From positions 62,001 through 126,000 of the forward strand of contig JAOQAG010000007.1 in assembly GCA_025963715.1 (NCBI GenBank): DNA of 64,000 nucleotides. The letters are read 5' to 3'. The notes beneath the pieces are model-generated. The model made no database searches and was not told where the DNA came from. It saw nothing but the letters and a program-made list of their open reading frames with translations. Position numbers and translations under genes: made by a program. This document shows positions 10,013 through 50,801 of the stretch, one piece after another. Position 1 is the stretch's first letter. Every line of letters begins with the position of its first letter. The DNA is from Bacteroidota bacterium (GTDB lineage Bacteria; Bacteroidota; Bacteroidia; 2-12-FULL-35-15).

Positions 10013-10045
10013 GCCTTATGTGTTTCTTTGTGCCTTATGTGGTGG
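10013..10045 (-). repeat. CCTTATGTGGTGG repeat, half element (copy 1)
   Basis: This 33-bp string is an exact reverse complement of 18745-18777 and a near match to both arms of the inverted pair at 45612-45706. It is a short mobile or recombining intergenic word; no coding potential. Confidence 0.7.
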
Positions 10046-18744: not shown

Positions 18745-18777
18745 CCACCACATAAGGCACAAAGAAACACATAAGGC
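18745..18777 (+). repeat. CCACCACATAAGGC repeat, half element (copy 2)
   Basis: Exact 33-bp reverse-complement match to 10013-10045; near match to both arms at 45612-45706. Confidence 0.7.
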
Positions 18778-44082: not shown

Positions 44083-45456
44083 ATGGCTAAAACAAAAACA
44101 TCCTTCTTTTGTCAGAATTGCGGCACACAATCCGCAAAATGGATCGGGCGTTGCCCTTCCTGTGGCGAATGGAATACATACGTAGAAGAAGTAGTATCAA
44201 AAGGCAATGATGCAAAAACGCCGGGCATTGCAAGTACCAGCCAGCAGCGCGCTTCCAAGCCGCAGCTGGTTACCGATATTAATTTAGCAGAACACAACCG
44301 CATTGCCATTTACGATCAGGAATTATCGCGTGTATTGGGCGGCGGACTTGTTCCGGGCTCACTTACTTTATTTGGCGGCGAACCGGGAATCGGAAAATCC
44401 ACGCTGATGCTGCAGATTGCTGTGAACATGAAAGGTCTGAAAGTACTGTATGTTTCAGGTGAGGAAAGCGAGCAGCAGATCCGCATGCGTGCAGAGCGCA
44501 TTGGGATGGAAAATCCGAATTGTTATATTTTAACTGAAACATCCACACAAAATATTTTCAAGCAGATCGAAATGCTGGAACCCAATTTTGTGATCATCGA
44601 TTCCATTCAAACATTGCATTCGGCACACATCGAATCATCGCCCGGAAGCGTTTCGCAGATCCGCGAATGCACTGCTGAATTACTTCGTTTTGCAAAGGAA
44701 AGCGGCACACCGGTATTTCTGATCGGCCACATTACCAAGGATGGCAGCCTTGCCGGACCAAAAGTACTGGAGCACATGGTGGATACCGTATTGCAATTCG
44801 AAGGTGACCGCAATCATGTGTACCGTTTGTTGCGCACAGCAAAAAACCGTTTCGGCTCCACCAACGAATTAGGAATTTATGAAATGCTTGGCAGCGGCTT
44901 GCGCGAAGTAAGCAATCCCTCTGAAATATTGATCACCAACCGCGAAGAACTGGTAAGCGGCGTTGCCATTGCCGCAACCATGGAAGGCATGCGGCCGATG
45001 CTGATTGAAACACAGGCATTGGTAAGCAGCGCCGCGTACGGTACGCCGCAACGTTCATCTACCGGTTTTGATCTGCGCAGATTAGCAATGTTACTGGCCG
45101 TATTGGAAAAACGCTGTGGGTTCCGCCTTGGAGTAAAAGATGTATTCCTCAACATTGCCGGTGGTATTAAAGTGGAAGATCCGGGGATTGACCTGGCATT
45201 GGTATGTGCTGTGTTATCAAGTAACGAGGACATGCCTATTTCTCCGAAAACCTGTTTTGCCGGCGAAGTTGGCTTGAGCGGTGAGATCCGCCCGGTAAAC
45301 CGCATTGATCAACGCATTTCAGAAGCAGAAAAATTAGGCTTTGAACATATTTTTATTTCCAAATACAACAAAAAAGGATTGGATCTTAATAGTTATAAAA
45401 TCAAGATCACGATGGTGGGGAAAATTGAGGAAGTGTTTGGGCTTTTGTTTGGGTAG
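44083..45456 (+). CDS. radA: DNA repair protein RadA (Sms)
   Basis: A 457-residue RecA-like helicase that acts in recombination branch migration. The N-terminal zinc finger has Cys10, Cys13, Cys24 and Cys27 (FCQNCG ... GRCPSCG). Walker A is GEPGIGKST (99-107), Walker B ends FVIIDSIQT, and the RadA-specific TAKNRFGSTNE motif is present. The C-terminal Lon-protease-like domain (about 290-457) includes CGFRLGVKDVFLNIAGGIKV and lacks a protease site, as in all RadA. Length is normal. The start is preceded by the dispersed AATCTGTGAATCTGTGGC repeat. Confidence 0.96.
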   Translation: MAKTKTSFFCQNCGTQSAKWIGRCPSCGEWNTYVEEVVSKGNDAKTPGIASTSQQRASKPQLVTDINLAEHNRIAIYDQELSRVLGGGLVPGSLTLFGGEPGIGKSTLMLQIAVNMKGLKVLYVSGEESEQQIRMRAERIGMENPNCYILTETSTQNIFKQIEMLEPNFVIIDSIQTLHSAHIESSPGSVSQIRECTAELLRFAKESGTPVFLIGHITKDGSLAGPKVLEHMVDTVLQFEGDRNHVYRLLRTAKNRFGSTNELGIYEMLGSGLREVSNPSEILITNREELVSGVAIAATMEGMRPMLIETQALVSSAAYGTPQRSSTGFDLRRLAMLLAVLEKRCGFRLGVKDVFLNIAGGIKVEDPGIDLALVCAVLSSNEDMPISPKTCFAGEVGLSGEIRPVNRIDQRISEAEKLGFEHIFISKYNKKGLDLNSYKIKITMVGKIEEVFGLLFG

Positions 45457-45555: not shown

Positions 45556-45611
45556 CAATTAAAAGCCAGTTCGAAATTTGCTACGTACTAATCAAATAAC
45601 ACGCTTTTTTT

Positions 45612-45706
45612 CCACCACATAAGGCACAAAGAAACACATAAGTTCTGCGTGTTAAATACTATATTTTACGCCTCGCCTTATGTTTTCTTTTGTGTCTTAT
45701 GTGGTG
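45612..45706. repeat. Inverted CCACCACATAAGG arms
   Basis: The left arm (45612-45642) contains CACCACATAAGGCACAAAG and the right arm (45677-45706) its reverse complement with about four differences. Half elements exist at 10013 and 18745. Confidence 0.75.
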
Positions 45707-45767
45707 AAATTTTTTTGCAATTGCGAGCAAAGCGAAGCAATTTCCAAAAGTGTAACTACGCTTCTCC

Positions 45768-45795
45768 AAAATTAAATGTATATACATTTAATTTT
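45768..45795. promoter_or_regulatory. 28-bp perfect palindrome, operator candidate
   Basis: Each 14-bp half is AAAATTAAATGTAT and its exact reverse complement; the core is ATGTATATACAT. It sits 3 bp before the -7 box TATATTTG of the UbiA-PKS cluster, covering the -33 region, so a bound dimer would control initiation. Winged-helix dimers such as MarR types bind similar AT-rich palindromes; no regulator gene is adjacent. Confidence 0.7.
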
Positions 45796-45798
45796 CTA

Positions 45799-45806
45799 TA
45801 TATTTG
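45799..45806 (+). promoter_or_regulatory. -7 box abutting the UbiA start
   Basis: TATATTTG matches TAnnTTTG, 5 bp before the ATG at 45812; the transcript would be almost leaderless. Confidence 0.55.
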
Positions 45807-45811
45807 TGAGT

Positions 45812-46717
45812 ATGCCAAATCTGAACATCATATCCTTGTTTGATAAGAACACCGTAAAGCATTTGCGCTTGCCGTTTTCCTACCATTTAATGCCCGTGTT
45901 TTTATTTGCATGGAGCCAGGCTGTGAATGTAAATATGCAGCATACGCTCATCGCATTCCTGATCCTGCATTTGCTCATTTACCCATCCAGCAATGGTTAC
46001 AACAGTTACCAGGATAAGGATGAAACCAGCATCGGCGGCTTGAAAAACCCACCGAAAGTTTCCGAAAATTTATTTTACGCCACGTTATTGCTCGATTTTA
46101 TAGGCGTATTGCTGGCATTGTTTGTTTCCGTTTATTTTTCCGTTTTCGTTTTGTTGTATGTATTGATCTCGCGTGCATACAGTTACCGTAACCTGCGGTT
46201 GAAAAAATATGCACTCATTGGGTTTTTAACCGTGTTCCTTTTCCAGGGCGCATTTACGTATTTAATGGTTTCTTCCGCGCTCAGCGATTTTAATCCCCGA
46301 AACTTTTTTACTCCCGGCAACGTAATTTGTATGAGTGTGGCAAGTTTGTTCATCGGCAGCGTTTACCCGCTTACGCAGATCTATCAGCATGCGGCAGATA
46401 AAAAGGACGGTGTAACCACCATCAGCTACAAGCTGGGGTATGTTGGCACGTTTATTTTCTCGGCTCTTATGTTCACGCTCGCTACCGTACTGCTTTTATA
46501 TTATTTTGACATGAAGCACCAGCGGATGTCGTTGGTCTTGTTCTTTACCATGATGCTGCCGGTAGTGATCCGATTGTTCATGTGGTTTTCAAAAGTGCGG
46601 GAGAACAGCAGCAATGCTAATTTTGAAAATACCATGAGCATGAATTTACTCGCATCCACCTGCATGAATGCTTATTTTGCAATTTTAATTTTAAATAATT
46701 CCTACTGTTGGTTTTAG
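45812..46717 (+). CDS. UbiA-family prenyltransferase-like membrane protein
   Basis: A 301-residue membrane protein with about eight helices. The first Asp-rich motif is NGYNSYQDKDE (about residues 71-81) and the second YQHAADKKDG, matching the N-x-x-x-D-x-x-x-D style sites of the UbiA superfamily that bind Mg-prenyl diphosphate. UbiA enzymes attach prenyl chains to aromatic rings. It opens the cluster with a type III PKS, which makes phenolic or pyrone rings, so prenylation of the PKS product is an attractive guess. The start at 45812 follows the palindrome and -7 box; the longer frame from 45776 would run through them. Confidence 0.8.
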   Translation: MPNLNIISLFDKNTVKHLRLPFSYHLMPVFLFAWSQAVNVNMQHTLIAFLILHLLIYPSSNGYNSYQDKDETSIGGLKNPPKVSENLFYATLLLDFIGVLLALFVSVYFSVFVLLYVLISRAYSYRNLRLKKYALIGFLTVFLFQGAFTYLMVSSALSDFNPRNFFTPGNVICMSVASLFIGSVYPLTQIYQHAADKKDGVTTISYKLGYVGTFIFSALMFTLATVLLLYYFDMKHQRMSLVLFFTMMLPVVIRLFMWFSKVRENSSNANFENTMSMNLLASTCMNAYFAILILNNSYCWF

Positions 46718-46741: not shown

Positions 46742-47827
46742 ATGAGTAAGATAATTTCGATAGGAACAGCAGTACCAATCCATCGCAGCAAGCAAACCGC
46801 GATCCTGGAGTTTATGCATGCCGCGTATAACAACGATGTGGCATCGCGTAAATTAAATGCGCTGTTTCATCACAGCGGAATAGAAGCACGTTATTCCGTG
46901 ATCCCCGATTTTGATAAGAACCGCCACGAACATATTTTTTTTAATGGAACACCCAGCACAGCCAACGTGGCCAATCGCCTGGATGTATTTAAAGAACGCG
47001 CCATTCCGTTGACAACACAAGCGATCCACGCTGCCTGCGAAAAAATAAATACCACGTTAGCAGAACTGGATGTAACACATTTGATTACCGTTACCTGCAC
47101 CGGTTTATCCGCACCGGGAATTGATGCAGAGCTGATCGAACAGCTGCATTTACGTAACGATATTTACCGCACTTCCGTTAATTTTTTAGGTTGTAACGCA
47201 GCCTTTCATGCGTTGAAAATTGCCGACATGATCTGCAAAACAGATCCGGATGCACGTGTGTTGATCGTATCTGTAGAGCTTTGTACATTGCATTTTCAAC
47301 CAAAAAACAATCACGATAATTTATTATCCAATACCATTTTTGGAGATGGTGCAGCAGCCGTGATCGTAACACCGGAGAGCTCCAAACAACGTGGAATTAT
47401 TATGAACGGTTTTTATTCCATCTTATTAAATAAAGGAAAAAACCTGATGGGCTGGGACATTACACCTGTTAATTTTGAAATGATCCTGGATGCGAAGATC
47501 CCTGAATTTATTGGCGAAGCGGTAGATGCAATTGTTGTGAACGCATTATCAAAATACAAAACAAATCTTTCCAGCATTAACAACTGGGCCATTCATCCGG
47601 GTGGAAAAAAAATAGTGGACACCATCAAAAAGCAGCTGGGATTAAGTGATGCCGACACTGCCGCTTCCTACAAAATTTTGAATGAATACGGGAATATGTC
47701 GTCGCCCACCATTTTATTTGTATTGAATGAATTGATGGAGCAGCAATACACAACCGGCGAAACCATTTTCTCCATTGGTTTTGGACCGGGATTAAGCATC
47801 GAAACAGCATTGTTCAGCTATGAATAA
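46742..47827 (+). CDS. Type III polyketide synthase
   Basis: A 361-residue chalcone/stilbene-synthase-like enzyme. The catalytic triad is Cys151 in NFLGCNAAFHAL, His285 in NWAIHPGGKK and Asn318 in NEYGNMSSPT; the C-terminal GFGPG loop is SIGFGPGLSIE. Such enzymes condense a fatty acyl-CoA starter with malonyl-CoA to alkylresorcinols or alkylpyrones. The gene starts 24 nt after the UbiA stop and precedes a methyltransferase and flavin oxidase, similar in content to the Streptomyces srsABC resorcinol set. Product class is inferred. Confidence 0.92.
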   Translation: MSKIISIGTAVPIHRSKQTAILEFMHAAYNNDVASRKLNALFHHSGIEARYSVIPDFDKNRHEHIFFNGTPSTANVANRLDVFKERAIPLTTQAIHAACEKINTTLAELDVTHLITVTCTGLSAPGIDAELIEQLHLRNDIYRTSVNFLGCNAAFHALKIADMICKTDPDARVLIVSVELCTLHFQPKNNHDNLLSNTIFGDGAAAVIVTPESSKQRGIIMNGFYSILLNKGKNLMGWDITPVNFEMILDAKIPEFIGEAVDAIVVNALSKYKTNLSSINNWAIHPGGKKIVDTIKKQLGLSDADTAASYKILNEYGNMSSPTILFVLNELMEQQYTTGETIFSIGFGPGLSIETALFSYE

Positions 47828-47849: not shown

Positions 47850-48578
47850 ATGTCCGCTAAATTTTCACACCGCTCCTACGAAGCCGAATTACTGGATGCT
47901 CCCGACATTCCAAAGGAATTATTATTTCAAAACCTCCGTGAATTAGATCTTGTAAATAAAACACTCGGCGGCCACGCGATCACATTAGCAGGAATAAAAA
48001 AATTACTGACCGATAAAACAAAAACATACACCATCATTGATATTGGCTGTGGCGGCGGCGATGCGATGAAACACATGGCGAGATGGGCGCGGAAAAATGC
48101 ATACAAAATAAAACTCATCGGTGTGGACATGAACGCCGATTGCATTGCATTTATGAAAAATGCCTGCAGCGAATTTCCGGAGATAGATGGCGTAGTGATG
48201 GATTATCGCGATTATTTAAAACAAAATACTTCCGTAGACATTGTTCATTGCTCCTTGTTTTGCCATCATTTAAAAGACAATGAGCTGTTGGAATTATTCG
48301 GTTACATGAGCCAATATGCCCGCGTTGGCTTTATCATCAATGATTTGCAGCGGCATTGGTTTGCATATTACAGCATTAAATTTCTGACGCGTTTATTGAA
48401 CGGCTCCACATTGGTAAAAAATGATGCGCCGCTTTCCGTATTGCGCGGATTTAAAAAAACGGAATTATTGCAATTAATGAAAACAGCAAACGTAAAGAAT
48501 GCAAGCGTTACCTGGCGTTGGGCATTCCGTTATCTAATAGTAGCTCAACACAGAGTAACAGAGAAGAAAGGAGAGTAG
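47850..48578 (+). CDS. Class I SAM-dependent methyltransferase
   Basis: A 242-residue methyltransferase. Motif I is TIIDIGCGGGDAMKHMARWA (about residues 63-82), the acidic strand-2 end is LIGVDMNADC, and motif IV-like VDIVHCSLFCHHLKDNE follows. In the PKS cluster it probably O- or C-methylates the aromatic product, as SrsB does. The last ten residues (QHRVTEKKGE) and the stop codon are encoded by the first copy of a 94-bp intergenic repeat, so the natural C-terminus may have been replaced. Spacing to the PKS is 22 nt. Confidence 0.88.
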   Translation: MSAKFSHRSYEAELLDAPDIPKELLFQNLRELDLVNKTLGGHAITLAGIKKLLTDKTKTYTIIDIGCGGGDAMKHMARWARKNAYKIKLIGVDMNADCIAFMKNACSEFPEIDGVVMDYRDYLKQNTSVDIVHCSLFCHHLKDNELLELFGYMSQYARVGFIINDLQRHWFAYYSIKFLTRLLNGSTLVKNDAPLSVLRGFKKTELLQLMKTANVKNASVTWRWAFRYLIVAQHRVTEKKGE

Positions 48579-48735: not shown

Positions 48736-49863
48736 ATGGAGAAATATCAGATAGCAATCATCGGCGGCGGTTTGGCCGGATTAACATTGGCGATCCAAAT
48801 GGCCGATGCAGGTTATTCCTGTGTGCTGTTCGAAAAAAATAATTACCCTTTTCATAAAGTTTGCGGCGAATACATTTCCATGGAATCCTGGAATTTTCTG
48901 GAACGTTGCGGATTAAATTTATCAGCAATGGATTTGCCGCGCATTAACCGTTTGCAGGTTTCATCACCATCAGGTAAGCTTTTAAAACACAAACTGGATT
49001 TAGGCGGATTTGGGATCAGCAGGCATTTGCTGGATTTTAAGCTGGCCGAAATTGCCCGCAACAAAGGTGTTCGTTTGTTTGAAGGCTGCAAAGTAAACGA
49101 TGTAAAATTTGAGAATGATCAATTCATAATTCAAACATCCGCCGGAAATTACACGGCAGAAATATGCGCCGGTGCCTGGGGCAAAAAAAGCAATCTCGAC
49201 CCGAAATTAGCACGCAAACATACGCAGCGCAAGCACGATGAAAAAAATTATGTTGGCATTAAATACCACATCCAGCTTGATTTTCCCGAGGATCTCATAG
49301 AGCTGCACAATTTTGAAAATGGCTATTGCGGCATTTCAAAAATAGAAAACAATAAATACTGTTTGTGTTATTTATCCGATTCGGAAAACCTTAAAAAATA
49401 CAATGGCGATATTAAAAAAATGGAAGCGGGAGTATTGATGAAAAATCCGTTTTTGAAGAATTATTTTACAAATGCTCAATTTTTATTCGGGCAGCCGGTT
49501 GTTATTTCCAATATTAAGATCGGCTATAAAGCCGCCGTTGAAAATCATGTGCTGATGCTGGGAGATGCTGCCGGAAACATTGCGCCGTTGAGCGGAAACG
49601 GAATGAGCATGGCCATGAGAAGCGCATTCGTGCTCAGTAATTTATTGAAAAATTATTTTAATACAAAAATGGATCGCACACAACTGGAGAATAAATACGA
49701 ACATTTTTGGAAATCTTCCTTTAAAAAGCGCATTGAGCTTTCGCGCTTTTTACAAAAATTATTGAAAAATAAGACAATGACCAACCTGGCAATCTCGGTA
49801 TTAAAAAACATTCCGTTTTTAAGAAATGCGGTCATAAGATCAACACATGGCAGACCGTTTTAA
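48736..49863 (+). CDS. FAD-dependent oxidoreductase of the geranylgeranyl reductase/monooxygenase class
   Basis: A 375-residue flavoprotein. The start at 48736 gives MEKYQIAIIGGGLAGLTLAI with the Rossmann G-G-G-L-A-G-L motif; the second FAD motif is LMLGDAAGNIAPLSGNGMSM (about residues 277-296). Members hydroxylate or reduce aromatic or prenyl substrates. In this cluster it may hydroxylate the polyketide ring, making a quinone as SrsC does, or reduce the prenyl chain. The 94-bp tandem repeat forms its entire upstream spacer. Role within the pathway is inferred. Confidence 0.87.
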   Translation: MEKYQIAIIGGGLAGLTLAIQMADAGYSCVLFEKNNYPFHKVCGEYISMESWNFLERCGLNLSAMDLPRINRLQVSSPSGKLLKHKLDLGGFGISRHLLDFKLAEIARNKGVRLFEGCKVNDVKFENDQFIIQTSAGNYTAEICAGAWGKKSNLDPKLARKHTQRKHDEKNYVGIKYHIQLDFPEDLIELHNFENGYCGISKIENNKYCLCYLSDSENLKKYNGDIKKMEAGVLMKNPFLKNYFTNAQFLFGQPVVISNIKIGYKAAVENHVLMLGDAAGNIAPLSGNGMSMAMRSAFVLSNLLKNYFNTKMDRTQLENKYEHFWKSSFKKRIELSRFLQKLLKNKTMTNLAISVLKNIPFLRNAVIRSTHGRPF

Positions 49864-50012: not shown

Positions 50013-50801
50013 ATGAACTTAGACCTATCAGGAAAAACAGCGCTTGTCTGCGGAAGCACACAAGGCATTGGAAAAGCATCTGCCGCCGAGCTTGCATCGC
50101 TTGGCGCAAATGTAATATTAGTGGCACGCAATGAAGATGCATTGAAAGAAGCACTAAAAGATCTCGATATTTCCAAAGGACAAAAACATGATTTTTTAGC
50201 GGTTGATTTTCAAACGCCTACCATCCTGAAAGAAAAAGTAGAAAATTTTATCGCCACTCACGGCGCCATTCACATCCTGGTAAACAATACCGGCGGGCCA
50301 CCCAGCGGCCTGATCCAGAATGCAAAAGTAGACGAATTTTTACAGGCATTCAACAATCATTTGGTGTGCAATCACATTTTAGTACAGGCATTGTTGCAGG
50401 GAATGAAGGATGAAAAATACGGTCGAATTGTTAACATTATCAGTACTTCTGTGAAAATCCCATTGAAAAATTTAGGCGTTTCCAATACCATTCGTGCAGC
50501 AGTTGCCAACTGGAGCAAAACGCTGGCAAATGAAGTGGCATCCTACGGAATTACTGTAAACAATGTGCTTCCGGGCGCAACGTTAACAGGCAGATTAACC
50601 GCCATCATCGAAAATAAATCTAAAAATACCGGTGAATCACTCAACGAAATTAAAAATGAAATGGAAAGCGAAATTCCATTGGGCCGTTTTGCCGAGCCTT
50701 CCGAAATTGCCAATGCAGTTGCGTTTTTAGCATCACCGGCAGCGTCGTATATTACAGGAATTAACGTTCCGGTAGATGGCGGAAGAACAGGGTGTTTGTA
50801 A
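50013..50801 (+). CDS. SDR-family oxidoreductase with atypical active site
   Basis: A 262-residue short-chain dehydrogenase/reductase. The NAD(P)-binding motif GSTQGIGKASA (residues 14-24) and NNTGGPPSG (the NNAG equivalent) are clear, as is Ser144 in RIVNIIS. The usual catalytic YxxxK is absent: the aligned segment is VSNTIRAAV, with Ser157 and Arg161 where Tyr and Lys belong. A recognised subset of SDRs has this S-N-x-x-R form and unknown or altered chemistry. It lies 150 bp after the PKS cluster with its own weak promoter, so membership of the pathway is uncertain. Confidence 0.85.
   Translation: MNLDLSGKTALVCGSTQGIGKASAAELASLGANVILVARNEDALKEALKDLDISKGQKHDFLAVDFQTPTILKEKVENFIATHGAIHILVNNTGGPPSGLIQNAKVDEFLQAFNNHLVCNHILVQALLQGMKDEKYGRIVNIISTSVKIPLKNLGVSNTIRAAVANWSKTLANEVASYGITVNNVLPGATLTGRLTAIIENKSKNTGESLNEIKNEMESEIPLGRFAEPSEIANAVAFLASPAASYITGINVPVDGGRTGCL

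Follow-up and report, generated by a model that had tools for sequence, protein, structure and literature searches.

A perfect palindrome before a UbiA/type III polyketide synthase cluster of Bacteroidota, a predicted operator of a distant MarR-family regulator

The MarR-type repressors MhqR and YodB/QsrR govern quinone regulons in Bacillus subtilis and Staphylococcus aureus, and the MhqR operator has the sequence TATCTCGAA-aTCGAaATA (PMC6798810). The operators of these repressors are palindromic, overlap the core promoter and precede genes for nitroreductases or quinone reductases and for ring-cleavage dioxygenases, the regulator's own operon included. The locus described here lies in a 64,000-nt stretch of Bacteroidota DNA (the window) and appears to be part of a regulon of similar make-up, in which nitro and FMN reductases and a ring-cleavage dioxygenase are found. 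However, the Bacteroidota operator is AWTATATGTATATACATATAWT and not that of MhqR, and the proposed regulator, which has no cysteine in its first 30 residues, lacks the N-terminal Cys5-7 of YodB, CatR and QsrR. The gene set also adds YceI proteins, pirin and an ABC exporter, to which some lineages join a cluster of UbiA and type III polyketide synthase (PKS) genes. This is a regulon that resembles the MhqR and YodB/QsrR systems but is different from them and has an unusual biosynthetic member.

BmoR of Bacteroides fragilis is also a MarR-type regulator of the Bacteroidota and tied to redox balance, but the inverted repeat reported for it contains TTTCC and not ATGTATATACAT, and its targets are thiol/disulfide genes (PMC6158253). 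The operator, the repressor class and the type of target are all known in kind. The Bacteroidia regulon and its tie to a type III PKS/prenyltransferase cluster seem to be new, within the limits of the open literature searched; searches of open-licence papers brought up no Bacteroidota match to a MarR/YceI regulon or to a UbiA/type III PKS cluster.

The palindrome is very probably the operator of an autoregulated MarR factor encoded at a distance (C5), which would repress the UbiA-PKS cluster together with detoxification and export genes until released by a ligand of phenolic or quinone-like type or by its own oxidation. A 22-bp palindromic site is common to the promoters of the MarR gene, the YceI gene next to it (with one mismatch), a secreted YceI, a nitroreductase, an ABC exporter and the UbiA-type III PKS-methyltransferase-FAD oxidoreductase cluster.

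The earlier note on this DNA described a 28-bp perfect palindrome before UbiA, and this is borne out: AAAATTAAATGTATATACATTTAATTTT, at positions 45768-45795 with no strand assigned, is an inverted repeat with 14-nt arms and zero spacer. Positions 45776-45787 form its 12-bp core, ATGTATATACAT. The box TATATTTG (45799-45806, plus strand), of the form TAnnTTTG, follows 3 bp downstream and ends 5 bp before the UbiA ATG at 45812, which is precisely the spacing given in the note; 16 bp separate the palindrome end from the ATG. In related sites the conserved unit is about 22 bp, with AWTATATGTATATACATATAWT (here about 45771-45792) as the common operator, and therefore the outermost AT-only pairs of the 28 bp may be incidental.

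The surroundings are AT-rich (23% GC over 61 bp around the palindrome), and one may ask whether such a sequence has arisen by chance and is functionless at this locus. This can practically be discounted, as the earlier note had anticipated. With a first-order Markov null for the 355-bp intergenic region, arms of 12 bp appeared in 1 of 20,000 simulations and arms of 13 or 14 bp in none, and the 64,000-nt window has no other perfect palindrome with arms longer than 8 bp. Besides its length, the exact identity with four other promoter sites and the conserved position in five related clusters speak against chance.

The cluster that follows is encoded on the plus strand. Its first gene, for a UbiA-family prenyltransferase (45812-46717; PF01040, E 4.6e-14), is followed by those for a type III PKS of the chalcone/stilbene synthase family (46742-47827), a class I SAM-dependent methyltransferase (47850-48578) and an FAD-dependent oxidoreductase of the geranylgeranyl reductase/aromatic hydroxylase superfamily (48736-49863). 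A short-chain dehydrogenase gene (SDR; 50013-50801), a syntenic neighbour in the genus, lies beyond a gap of about 150 bp and is a candidate member of the transcript. Upstream is radA (44083-45456, plus strand), which is conserved beside the site-bearing clusters examined and is outside the regulon. With radA and the SDR gene as flanks, no regulator gene adjoins the cluster, as had been noted before. The order UbiA-PKS-methyltransferase is kept in nearly all relatives fetched, and the FAD enzyme and dehydrogenase are present in the closer ones. All relatives of the PKS that have a name come from Bacteroidota genomes assembled from metagenomes. Its best NCBIfam match is DpgA, the 3,5-dihydroxyphenylacetyl-CoA synthase (NF042429), but the score of 187 bits is well below the equivalog cut-off of 425. 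Because the PKS is linked to UbiA and the FAD enzyme, the product of the cluster probably differs from that of DpgA.

The box before UbiA matches the TAnnTTTG element of Bacteroidota sigma-A promoters. A sigma-70 scan of the region gave nothing useful, as expected for this phylum. The flavobacterial -7 box is at -12 to -5 (PMC9723704), which would put the UbiA start at about 45811, one base before the ATG, and would make the mRNA leaderless; the 22-bp operator would then span about -40 to -19. Most of the genus clusters have a TAnnTTTG box some 5 bp ahead of the UbiA start codon (45799-45814 here; orthologs L011-L021), and this sequence pattern implies a conserved leaderless UbiA mRNA with or without the operator.

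At the secreted YceI, ABC exporter, nitroreductase and UbiA promoters the -7 box is 6-16 bp after the core or overlaps the core end. For UbiA and the majority of the other targets, the operator covers the spacer or reaches the -7 box, which is the position of a steric repressor. At the MarR gene the site is farther upstream of the -7 box (22-27 bp in most), and repression there is accordingly less obvious. Some sites, among them most of those at the dioxygenase and cytosolic YceI genes, lack a clear TAnnTTTG box downstream.

A palindrome behind radA might also act in RNA, as a hairpin or as the radA transcription terminator. RNA of the region does fold slightly better than shuffled sequences (z -1.91), but the stem is entirely A-U and a terminator-like site was not found in the region. 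With this weak fold and no terminator, the reading was rejected as extremely improbable; moreover, relatives conserve a 22-bp site whose distance from the -7 box is fixed, and the start predicted above would leave the palindrome outside the UbiA transcript.

Genome-wide counts by pattern searches bear on the distribution of the predicted operator. The exact core is found five times in 4.91 Mb versus 0.3-0.6 expected from the window composition (Poisson P 2e-5 to 4e-4), and a reversed-sequence control gave one match. All five copies are in promoters, each closely preceding a gene and followed by a TAnnTTTG box: those of the UbiA/type III PKS cluster, the MarR regulator (C5), the nitroreductase (C16), the ABC exporter (C4) and the secreted YceI (C46). 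The site is thus not a widespread repeat, a possibility the earlier note had raised against itself. One-mismatch cores are near background (20 versus 16 in the control), and most of those inspected are intragenic; the sole one counted as a regulon site is ATGTATCTACAT, between the MarR gene and the next YceI gene (C5). Another one-mismatch core, ATGTAGATACAT, with TAAATTTG downstream, precedes a beta-ketoacyl-synthase-like gene (L104, C28:4731) and is possibly a weak further promoter of the regulon.

The MarR family gene is the only transcription factor gene with an exact site in this genome. It is located at C5:128557-129003, in the order MarR, YceI, LigB-type extradiol dioxygenase. The product, of 149 aa, belongs to the MarR family by its winged-helix domain (PF12802, 39.3 bits; curated cut-off 27), and MarR structures in the PDB match it, the best being 3u2r (E 2.7e-12). 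Its best NCBIfam match is HpaR, the regulator of the homoprotocatechuate operon (TIGR02337), also of the MarR family and with an aromatic signal, but the score of 37 bits is far under the family cut-off of 121 and the gene context is other. MarR-family operators are palindromes or pseudopalindromes of 16-20 bp in the regulator's own and its target promoters; by sequence, the palindromic site of about 22 bp is of this kind. A cysteine near the DRR motif of the wing, Cys96 (L164, C5), is conserved in 21 of 22 genus orthologs and is a possible redox switch. The earlier note had predicted a dimeric-repressor operator under the control of a factor encoded elsewhere ('MarR or similar'). The presence of the exact core upstream of an unlinked MarR gene and in three further promoters, and its presence before the same gene set in relatives, support the former and strongly support the latter.

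Among 59 related genomes, this one included, the core is present in 35. Of 74 distinct exact sites, 53 are before MarR, two YceI types, the ABC exporter, the nitroreductase, the dioxygenase, its small neighbour or UbiA; one further site precedes a pirin gene, and many of the rest are intragenic. Nearly all genus orthologs of MarR have an exact or near-exact site before their own start, often repeated before the next gene. Within the genus, at a genome completeness of 95% or more, 14 of 14 genomes with the MarR ortholog have regulon sites, against 0 of 7 without it (Fisher 8.6e-6). Five genomes of 64-93% completeness have regulon sites and no MarR match, and the missing gene is taken for an assembly gap.

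In a survey of 295 genomes of the class, the 14-mer TATGTATATACATA is rare and occurs in 21. Outside the genus it is mostly before homologs of the same MarR, in several families, and before YceI, pirin and FMN reductase genes; the 12-mer core is also found there before a nitroreductase. The same operator precedes pirin genes (L206, L211 and L140) of other genomes, which suggests that pirin belongs to the wider regulon.

AT-rich palindromes of the TGTATATACA type are not unique to MarR proteins, and GntR/HutC sites can look similar. The site might then be read by a transcription factor of another family such as GntR/HutC, the MarR gene being only one of its targets, and the 12-mer does appear in an article about NagR, a GntR/HutC regulator from Bacillus thuringiensis (PMC6141813). 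This is nonetheless quite improbable: inside and outside the genus it is this MarR gene that is most consistently found with the site, regulon sites vanish where the gene is absent, and no GntR gene was seen adjoining the sites. Autoregulation, moreover, is typical of MarR proteins.

The UbiA promoter was compared across 18 clusters, 17 of the genus and one of another family, with scores from a weight matrix whose training set was the other promoters, UbiA being left out. The scores are bimodal: six clusters have 10.8-30.7 and twelve have -0.4 or lower. In all six (this genome, G003, G011, G029, G010 and G009) the site is located 32-36 bp ahead of the aligned start. The eighteenth genus cluster, G018, has no site. 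Orthologous clusters without the palindrome, which the earlier note had named as a refutation, are frequent: the operator is in the same place in 6 of 18 genus clusters but is absent from the other 12 and from all clusters checked outside the genus. Taken with the rarity of the site in this genome, the outcome for the two refuting conditions of the note is mixed, though on the whole favourable. Five of the genus clusters without it are from regulator-less genomes and form one group, and seven lack it despite the regulator in the genome. UbiA sites show no more than a suggestive association with regulon presence (one-sided Fisher 0.09). Mapped onto the UbiA tree, the site label requires three changes, and therefore the operator was gained or lost more than once; its absence from 12 of 18 genus clusters indicates that it is not essential to the cluster. 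From these comparisons the operator at UbiA is real but patchy, and the predicted control of the PKS cluster is lineage-restricted.

It should be pointed out that some MarR proteins activate transcription. The MarR protein may bind here and activate, or the UbiA site may be bound with no regulatory effect, and the distance of the MarR-gene site from its -7 box and the many orthologous clusters that manage without a site would agree with this. Yet the position of the operator over the spacer or against the -7 box, as described above, fits steric repression, and activation or binding without effect is considered unlikely.

Under repression, a MarR dimer would bind the site over the -33/-7 spacer of the UbiA promoter and block RNA polymerase. 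Its release, by ligand or oxidation, would induce the detoxification and export genes along with the PKS cluster, whose predicted product is a prenylated, methylated polyketide phenol. The site-linked genes include the nitroreductase (this genome and G039), an FMN reductase (L205) and the LigB-type dioxygenase; by analogy with the MhqR and YodB/QsrR regulons, which share such targets, a quinone or phenolic signal is suggested (PMC6798810). A small polyketide/prenyl cluster thus appears to belong to a regulon that answers phenol or quinone stress.

A wider reading is offered more tentatively, with slightly less than even confidence. A class-wide, undescribed MarR regulon of Bacteroidia, with MarR, YceI, pirin, nitro and FMN reductases, extradiol dioxygenase and ABC exporter, would have captured the type III PKS-UbiA cluster in some lineages, and quinone or phenol stress would call up synthesis of the prenylated phenol or quinone, unless this compound is itself the ligand, opening the regulon to protect its producer. 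A silent cluster of an uncultured branch of the phylum gains by this work a named candidate regulator, a predicted operator and a probable type of inducer. The work also defines a recurrent MarR regulon of the Bacteroidia whose core members include YceI and pirin, and their co-regulation with aromatic-ring and quinone enzymes suggests a role for these proteins. The turnover of the operator in the genus shows a stress regulon gaining or losing a biosynthetic cluster.

The intergenic region upstream of the palindrome contains another inverted repeat, of 100 bp with 33-nt arms, at 45610-45709. Its end, CCACATAAGGCACAAAGAAAC, is also found at 10022-10042 and 18748-18768 and, as far as translated frames indicate, also ahead of the MarR gene, and the repeats form a dispersed family.
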